From Haloarchaeobius salinus (GTDB lineage: Archaea; Halobacteriota; Halobacteria; Halobacteriales; Natrialbaceae): a stretch of DNA of 64,000 nt. Where the stretch lies: NCBI RefSeq assembly GCF_024464185.1, contig NZ_JANHAU010000002.1:496001-560000 (forward strand). Direction: 5' to 3'. The stretch's first letter is position 1. Each line of letters starts with the position of its first letter. Under the pieces are notes generated by a model. It did no database searches. It was not told the origin of the DNA and saw nothing but the letters and a program-made list of their open reading frames with translations. The position numbers and the translations under genes are program-made. Below are positions 9,513-47,298 of the stretch, piece after piece.

Positions 9513-9845
9513 CAGCCAGAAAGCCCCGTCAGTCGTGGGAACAGTCTCCTTCCCGAACCGCCAGAAAGCCCCACCCCGCCCCGAAACAGCCCGCGAACCT
9601 CCCCAGCCTCCTGCGATGCTCAGTCGCTAGCGTCCCCGGAAATCGGAGATTTCCGGTGGGCCCACGAGACGCGAGCGTCTCGTGACCGCTCCCTGCGCGT
9701 CTCGTCCCTCGCGCGGAATGGCTCGCGGCCTTGCGAGACTCCTTCGTCGTCTCGCCGCCCTCCACTCACTGCGTTCGCGGAGACCTCACTTCGTTCGGCA
9801 GGCTCGCCAGTCGCGCGCCATCCGGCTGGTCGGTCGTCGAAGTGT
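9513..9845. repeat. Composite hairpin-rich intergenic repeat, copy 2
   Basis: Fills most of the 452-base gap 9429-9880, where no gene is supported. It has two copies of the GCCAGAAAGCCCC core (9515-9527 and 9560-9572), the ACCTCCCCAGCCTCCTGC module (about 9598), two perfect hairpins (9636-9656 and 9663-9684), a GCGCGGAATGGCTCGCGG module also seen in copy 1, and the end module CGCGCGCCATCCGGCTGG followed by TCGGTCGTCGAA. The copy near 47 kb has the same order and ends in the same way. Confidence 0.8.
9636..9684. repeat. Paired perfect hairpins inside composite repeat copy 2
   Basis: First hairpin: arms CCGGAAATC and GATTTCCGG with loop GGA (9636-9656). Second: arms CACGAGACGC and GCGTCTCGTG with loop GA (9663-9684). 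The same two hairpins occur in the same order at 47024-47072, where the second stem has a G-C pair replaced by A-T on both arms. Confidence 0.85.
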
Positions 9846-11305: not shown

Positions 11306-11392
11306 CTGTGTCCGGATAGATGCGGGGGACGTACATCGTCTCGGCCGGCTGGCTTCAGCCGCTGAAGCCAGCCGAAACGTGGAGGATGGCCG

Positions 11393-46753: not shown

Positions 46754-47298
46754 CAGCCAGACAGCCCCCGACCGTTCGGCTCCCGGGAGCCGTGCGAGAC
46801 TCCTCCGTCGTCTCGCTGTCCTCCGTTCGCTGCGCTCACGGAGACCGCGCTGCGGTCCTCGTGCCTGCGGTCCTTGCGGGCTCCGGGTTCGCCGAGCGGT
46901 CGGCCCCATTCAGTCCCACCGTCGGAGCAAGCTCCGACGAGCCCCCGTTCGCTCGCAAGCTCGCTCACGGGGACACCCGACCGCACAGCACCGCACCTCA
47001 TACCTCCCCAGCCTCCTGCATCTCCGGAAATCAGAGATTTCCGGCGTGCTCACGAAACGCAAGCGTTTCGTGACCGATGCTCGCAAGCTGCGCTCCTCGT
47101 CCACTGCGAGAGCAAGCTCTCGCAAGCCTTCGGTCGCACGCTCCCGAAGACCTCGCGCGAGCGTCGGCGAGACACGCTCGCTGCGCTTACGGGTCGCAGG
47201 CTCCCCGTTCGCATCGCGGGTCTCGCTGGCGCTCGCCCCGCGCACCGCTCGCGGTCTCGCCAGACCGCGCGCCACCCGGTTGGTCGGTCGTCGAAACG
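46754..47298. repeat. Composite hairpin-rich intergenic repeat, longest copy
   Basis: Occupies most of the 674-base gap 46684-47357. In order: CAGCCAGACAGCCCCC (46754-46769, core module), a CTCGTGCCTGCGGTCC segment (about 46858), ATTCAGTCCCACC (about 46909), CCTCATACCTCCCCAGCC then TCCTGCA (about 46996), two perfect hairpins (47024-47044 and 47051-47072), a series of GAGCAAGCTC-type palindromes, and the end module GCGCGCCACCCGGTTGG followed by TCGGTCGTCGAA. The frames here have no coding character and no gene is called. Confidence 0.8.
47024..47072. repeat. Paired perfect hairpins inside the longest composite repeat
   Basis: First hairpin: arms CCGGAAATC and GATTTCCGG with loop AGA (47024-47044). 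Second: arms CACGAAACGC and GCGTTTCGTG with loop AA (47051-47072). Compared with 9636-9684 the first stem is identical with one loop change, and the second has A-T replacing G-C at one stem position on both arms. The sequence after both is GACCG. Confidence 0.85.

Follow-up and report, generated by a model that had tools for sequence, protein, structure and literature searches.

A mobile double-hairpin element of Halobacteria whose covarying stems probably reflect template switching

Two adjacent hairpins that occur twice in the window, the 64,000-nucleotide stretch of Haloarchaeobius salinus DNA analysed here, are parts of one 54-bp non-coding mobile unit, which we termed the double-hairpin element (DHE). 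The DHE inserts precisely at CG, with a 2-bp duplication. Its stems covary throughout the family, and this covariation is probably best explained at the DNA level, by replication template switching that copies one arm onto the other. Compensatory changes usually count as the strongest sign of RNA function; in the DHE family, extreme as its covariation is, further features point to a replication mechanism instead. The DHE adds a widespread and apparently undescribed family to the known mobile hairpins.

Structure, insertion and distribution of the element

Copy A occupies positions 9633-9686 of the forward strand (54 bp) and reads TCC-hairpin 1-TGGGCC-hairpin 2-AC. Its hairpin 1 is CCGGAAATC-GGA-GATTTCCGG (9636-9656, a 9-bp stem with the triloop GGA), and its hairpin 2 is CACGAGACGC-GA-GCGTCTCGTG (9663-9684, 10 bp). 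A preliminary description of this DNA had reported that the hairpin pair at 9636-9684 recurs, and the second pair does lie at 47024-47073, within copy B (47021-47074, forward strand, 54 bp, TCT-hairpin 1-CGTGC-hairpin 2-C). The hairpins of copy B are CCGGAAATC-AGA-GATTTCCGG at 47024-47044 and TCACGAAACGC-AA-GCGTTTCGTGA at 47050-47073. The compensated change described earlier, from G-C to A-T on both arms of hairpin 2, is present between 9663-9684 and 47051-47072 (CACGAAACGC-AA-GCGTTTCGTG), as is the accompanying loop change from GA to AA; in copy B an added T-A pair extends the stem to 11 bp (47050-47073). Both copies form much more stable folds than their dinucleotide-shuffled versions, with z from -3.8 to -6.8, whether folded as DNA or as RNA and for both strands. 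The further claim that the CCGGAAATC stem is unchanged and that its loop alone varies held for the two window copies only, as other copies in the same genome (G000) have hairpin 1 stems such as CCAGAAATC/GATTTCTGG (L014) and CCGGAGGTC/GATCTCCGG (L050). A perfect 14-bp hairpin at 11346-11374 (CGGCTGGCTTCAGC-C-GCTGAAGCCAGCCG) bears no relation to the DHE.

The covariance model R1 matched copy A at 9628-9695 and copy B at 47016-47083. The ends of copy A were set by comparison with an empty paralogous site (L042, GATGCTCAGTCGCTAG[CG]CTCCCT) and with an orthologous pair of an empty and an occupied site (L022/L278), and the insertion point of copy B is unoccupied in L021, L023 and L031. Flank comparison placed the duplicated target CG of copy A at 9631-9632 and 9687-9688. 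In copy B, the right CG lies at 47075-47076, and the left dinucleotide is CA (47019-47020), which was taken as a mutated CG, the right copy being CG. The two flanking dinucleotides were equal in 91/106 copies (CG/CG 87, CA/CA 3, TG/TG 1), whereas no other offset exceeded about 40 percent. This equality and the empty sites together define the precise element as 9633-9686 and 47021-47074. The extent given in the preliminary description thus covered the hairpins, but the real unit is larger, 54 bp plus the duplicated dinucleotide, and its nature as a discrete mobile element, the CG duplication and its nesting in a larger repeat had been missed. The flanks were CA/CG in 9/106 copies, nearly all from this lineage, which fits the decay of one CG.

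Mobility was seen at orthologous loci. L022 in G000 and L278 in the congener G002 share 89 percent identity, with a clean 56-bp insertion as the difference between them (CTG[CG]GTCC vs CTG[CG]TCCCCAGAAATC...TCGTGAC[CG]GTCC); a similar empty/occupied difference separates L042 from L279. Each member of the orthologous pair L050/L285 carries a DHE, at different positions of the surrounding composite repeat, and no orthologous pair of DHEs was obtained. The frame common to the family is CG-TC(C/A)-hairpin 1-TGnGCn-hairpin 2-(A/C)A-CG, and the stem sequences differ widely from genome to genome. Among the copies of G000, the order of the hairpins is constant, the linker has 5-6 bases, and the stems of both hairpins vary yet remain paired. 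When a left hairpin had the flanking frame, an intact second hairpin followed it in 105/113 cases, the other 8 including copies whose second hairpin is mismatched or nested. About 300 loci yielded no half elements, which would betray a longer autonomous form, and no longer version with the hairpins apart.

A covariance model built from 12 copies detected DHEs in 48/61 Halobacteria genomes, in many families of the order. The genome of the window (3.85 Mb) has 13 copies. A pairing-blind pattern, limited to the inner stretch (the 3' arm of hairpin 1, the linker and the start of hairpin 2), recovered the identical 13 copies and two chance-level matches with three mismatches, and a bias of the pairing-based search was therefore rejected. 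A separate exact pattern, applied to named genomes, matched in Haloarchaeobius, Halonotius, Halorientalis, Haloferax mucosum and one further Halobacteriales archaeon. Copy number is very uneven within the genus: the covariance model gave 25 hits in G000, 33 in G002 and none in the congeners G001 and G003. A literature search for a haloarchaeal equivalent returned the Haloquadratum repeats alone. At L103, L236, L256 and L264, DHEs form small arrays, abutting on a shared CG or nested. The stems are unusually varied in two assemblies of 1.8-1.9 Mb (G046 with 28 copies and G054 with 19).

Host sequences of the element

Both window copies lie within a composite repeat. Composite A (9513-9834, forward strand, CAGCCAGAAAGCCCC to GCGCGCCATCCGGCTGGTCGG) contains copy A, and composite B (46754-47289, forward strand, CAGCCAGACAGCCCC to GCGCGCCACCCGGTTGGTCGG) contains copy B; the ends of both are approximate. 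In Haloarchaeobius, this repeat spans ~300-600 bp, runs CAGCCAGAAAGCCCC ... CCCCTTTCAGTCCC ... CCTCCCCAGCC ... GCGCGCCACCCGGCTGGTCGG, and has at least three DHE insertion points. The composite repeat is an insertion in its own right: composite B is missing as a whole from the orthologous gap of three congeners (G002, G004 and G005), and at site A (9.5-9.8 kb) the composite is present in G005, where it contains no DHE, and both are lacking in G004.

In other genera, roughly one in four sampled DHEs lies in a CCCCTTCCTC...GGGAGGGGATAC motif. As this motif lies directly upstream of tnpA (ISHsi2) or of DUF2080-tnpB in annotated plasmids, we read it as an IS200/IS605-type left end. Such an end motif adjoined 27/109 DHE copies, compared with 22/707 random windows, and the orientation of the DHE relative to it was mixed (15 same, 12 opposite). 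The TnpB omega-RNA was considered as the insertion host in these genera and rejected, since the motif is found at the left end, ahead of tnpA or tnpB and not downstream, and since most loci read have it away from tnpB.

The composite repeats have further palindromic features. The 5' part (46754-46910 in the window; L002, L018-L024, L030 and L035) is built as an extended stem, GAAAGCCCC-arm ... arm'-GCCCCTTTC; its two arms are wholly different between copies and still complementary, the same covariation puzzle on a larger scale. Downstream of the DHE, the composites L001, L006, L012 and L016 carry another inserted cassette, with as many as four hairpins (CCGAAAATC.., CCAGAAATC.., CCGGACGTAGTCCGG and CGAGAGAGCAAGCTCTCTCG), and its loops too occur as reverse complements (GCAAGC/GCTTGC). 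The palindrome GTTTACAAnnTTGTAAAC lies just past the 3' end of the composite in L001, L003, L007, L018, L033, L042 and L053; a similar one, GTTTACAAAAGTCGTAAAC, is present in G004 at site A, in the otherwise empty orthologous gap. The first motif of the composite, CAGCCAGAAAGCCCC, is often doubled, exactly 45 bases apart with GTCGTGGGAAC in between, as at 9513-9572 of the window and at C1:49347, C1:766514, C1:811792, C1:814787 and C2:171911 of G000. The orthologous composites L023/L275 and L059/L272 have common ends and differing internal segments, which suggests exchange between copies.

Covariation, loop inversion and their cause

The covariation noted between the two window copies is genuine and extends to the whole family. 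Among 102 distinct aligned copies, 19/20 pair positions covaried, and hairpin 1 covaried as well as hairpin 2. Double-changed cells numbered 233, compared with 48 +/- 5 in shuffles, and the covariation score was 0.367, compared with 0.03-0.09 in slid controls; as kinship of the copies inflates these counts and the model-fitted alignment leans toward structure, more weight goes to the slid controls and to the pairing-blind search than to the shuffle counts. The preliminary description had held that many copies with uncompensated stem changes would speak against it. We looked for them in 109 unique oriented copies, and 2,022/2,051 stem pairs (98.6 percent) were Watson-Crick. The remaining 29 comprised 12 G.T pairs on the module strand, 6 A.C and 11 others. 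G.U-type pairs thus amount to 0.6 percent of all stem pairs, and the strand bias (G.T 12 vs A.C 6) was not significant (p = 0.24).

The loops of hairpin 1 occur in both orientations. Four exact reverse-complement pairs (GAA 24/TTC 11, GGA 22/TCC 11, AGA 12/TCT 5, AAA 5/TTT 4) account for 94/109 loops, 31 of the 109 being the reverse complement of one of the four main loops. Of the forms that are only reversed or only complemented, AAG and CTT were seen once each and AGG and CCT never. Moreover, some copies differ by a loop inversion only: copy A is identical to L200 of G002 save for the hairpin 2 loop (GA/TC), and the same holds for the pairs L243/L252 (AGA/TCT) and L259/L261 (TTC/GAA). Many of the loops are GNA on one strand (GAA, GGA). 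GNA loops are known for very stable DNA mini-hairpins, e.g. d(GCGAAGC), and may offer a lead here.

The near absence of G.T intermediates with no significant strand bias, together with the exact loop inversion, favours a cause at the DNA level. Template switching is known to homogenise arms and to invert spacers, with arms over 9 bp and spacers of 2-5 bp (PMC8604942), and to yield multi-base compensatory changes (PMC8794818). The DHE family displays the same combination, with predominantly Watson-Crick stems and extensive double changes on the one hand, and inverted loops and inversion-only copy pairs on the other. Arm homogenisation combined with exact spacer inversion is the published hallmark of template switching. 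The process would explain in one step the change seen in the window. The likeness extends to the lack of wobble intermediates (PMC8604942, PMC8794818), even though the published cases concern individual loci, in yeast genes and in RNA genes, and the DHE is an archaeal mobile repeat family. We infer template switching from the comparison of copies across the family.

According to this proposal, each hairpin would evolve after insertion as a DNA palindrome. During replication, the polymerase would at times switch from one arm, or from one strand, to the other. A switch between arms would copy one arm from the other, so that a one-sided mutation would become a matched change on both arms, an apparent compensatory change; an intermolecular switch would invert the loop too. 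Hairpin formation may in addition aid the movement of the DHE, whose targets lie mostly within intergenic repeats rich in palindromes and within IS200/IS605-type ends. Several points weigh against template switching. The copies share descent, so that their counts do not equal independent events; DHEs spread by copying, and perfect stems may in part be young copies of perfect masters; and heavily decayed copies may evade all the searches used. Furthermore, if movement required a DNA hairpin or cruciform, selection would likewise keep stems Watson-Crick and could allow either loop orientation.

Such selection is the main rival to template switching and may act alongside it. It supposes that movement depends on recognition of the stems by a structure-specific enzyme (e.g. 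a resolvase or a single-strand transposase of the HUH/Y1 type), so that pairing-breaking mutations are lost and compensated ones spread. The presence of two hairpins as a rule, with the second mostly intact, is consistent with it, as are the conserved TC...TGnGC...AA frame, the mobility evident from presence and absence among congeners and from the CG duplication, and the location of DHEs in IS200/IS605-type ends. Alone, however, it leaves the exact loop inversions and the rarity of intermediates unexplained. The number of Y1 transposases correlated only weakly with that of DHEs (Spearman 0.22, p = 0.09), the genomes G040 (8 DHEs) and G054 (19 DHEs) had no Y1 hit, and IS605-type insertion proceeds without target duplication (PMC3119063), all of which makes this explanation of the covariation rather unlikely. 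As candidate mobilisers, Y1 transposases, although present, were set aside on account of the weak correlation, and IS110 with a bridge RNA was rejected because neither G000 nor G002, which have the most DHEs in this genus, has an IS110 transposase. A tentative extension of the template-switching proposal is an order-wide family of 54-bp DHEs in which arm-to-arm copying lets the stems diversify freely and a putative structure-recognising enzyme, reading shape and not sequence, moves the elements into CG.

The preliminary description had left the choice between selection on pairing, in an RNA hairpin or a DNA cruciform, and arm copying; arm copying fits best, and selection on RNA is unsupported. 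A double hairpin acting in a transcript, as a terminator, a stabiliser or a structured non-coding RNA, would account for the good RNA folding and for covariation that is very strong by the usual test. It would also predict common G.U pairs on one strand and a single loop orientation, neither of which was seen. In addition, the stem sequences diverge between genomes, an Rfam scan of the window gave no match, orientation relative to the IS200/IS605-type ends is mixed, and DHEs are missing at orthologous sites in congeners, so that an RNA function appears improbable. Gene conversion between dispersed copies, which would replace whole cassettes and change both arms at once, we consider very improbable. 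Haloarchaea are polyploid and recombine readily, and internal segments have clearly been exchanged in the orthologous composites described above; conversion, however, moves existing variants and creates neither new matched stems nor inverted loops, and copies identical but for a loop inversion would not be expected from it. As the DHE has almost no wobble intermediates and no significant strand bias, and its loops are exactly inverted, a positive covariation test alone, such as the R-scape run proposed in the preliminary description, would be misleading here as evidence of RNA function. This calls for caution in covariation-based RNA discovery in repeat-rich genomes, and the DHE family offers a natural data set for measuring archaeal template switching.

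Nearest known systems

The nearest relatives of the DHE are Haloquadratum SMR-A elements, PATEs, REPs and mitochondrial double-hairpin elements, and it fits the full definition of none of them. Like CGTC-tagged REPs, DHEs are intergenic palindromes that follow CGTC, and for REPs, too, a dedicated transposase is not known; REPs, however, are single palindromes of 20-40 bp (PMC3733652), whereas the DHE has two hairpins, and the CG of its 'CGTC' is target sequence, replaced by CA or TG in some copies. Mitochondrial double-hairpin and repetitive hairpin-forming elements (PMC2800124) likewise have two adjacent hairpins, are mobile between close relatives, and insert into other repeats and non-coding sequence. 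They belong to eukaryote organelles, and those of Allomyces have no flanking duplications, so that the likeness is one of form only.

PATEs, including terminal-only forms of 52 bp (PMC3119063), are short, palindromic, haloarchaeal, non-coding and linked to IS605-type elements, as is the DHE. In contrast to the DHE, which duplicates CG, they have no inverted terminal repeats and no target duplication, and their palindromes resemble IS605 ends; the DHE enters and interrupts such ends, in both orientations. SMR-A elements (HqIRS42/43/55, PMC3119063) are also haloarchaeal and non-coding with prominent inverted repeats, and their families are similar in form and not in sequence. Compared by description, they are about 110 bp long and lack a target duplication, unlike the 54-bp DHE with CG on both sides. 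SMR-A elements, for which no mobiliser is known, insert preferentially into palindromes close to the ends of PATEs and of IS605-type transposons (PMC3119063), and by analogy the enrichment of DHEs at IS200/IS605-type ends resembles this target preference.
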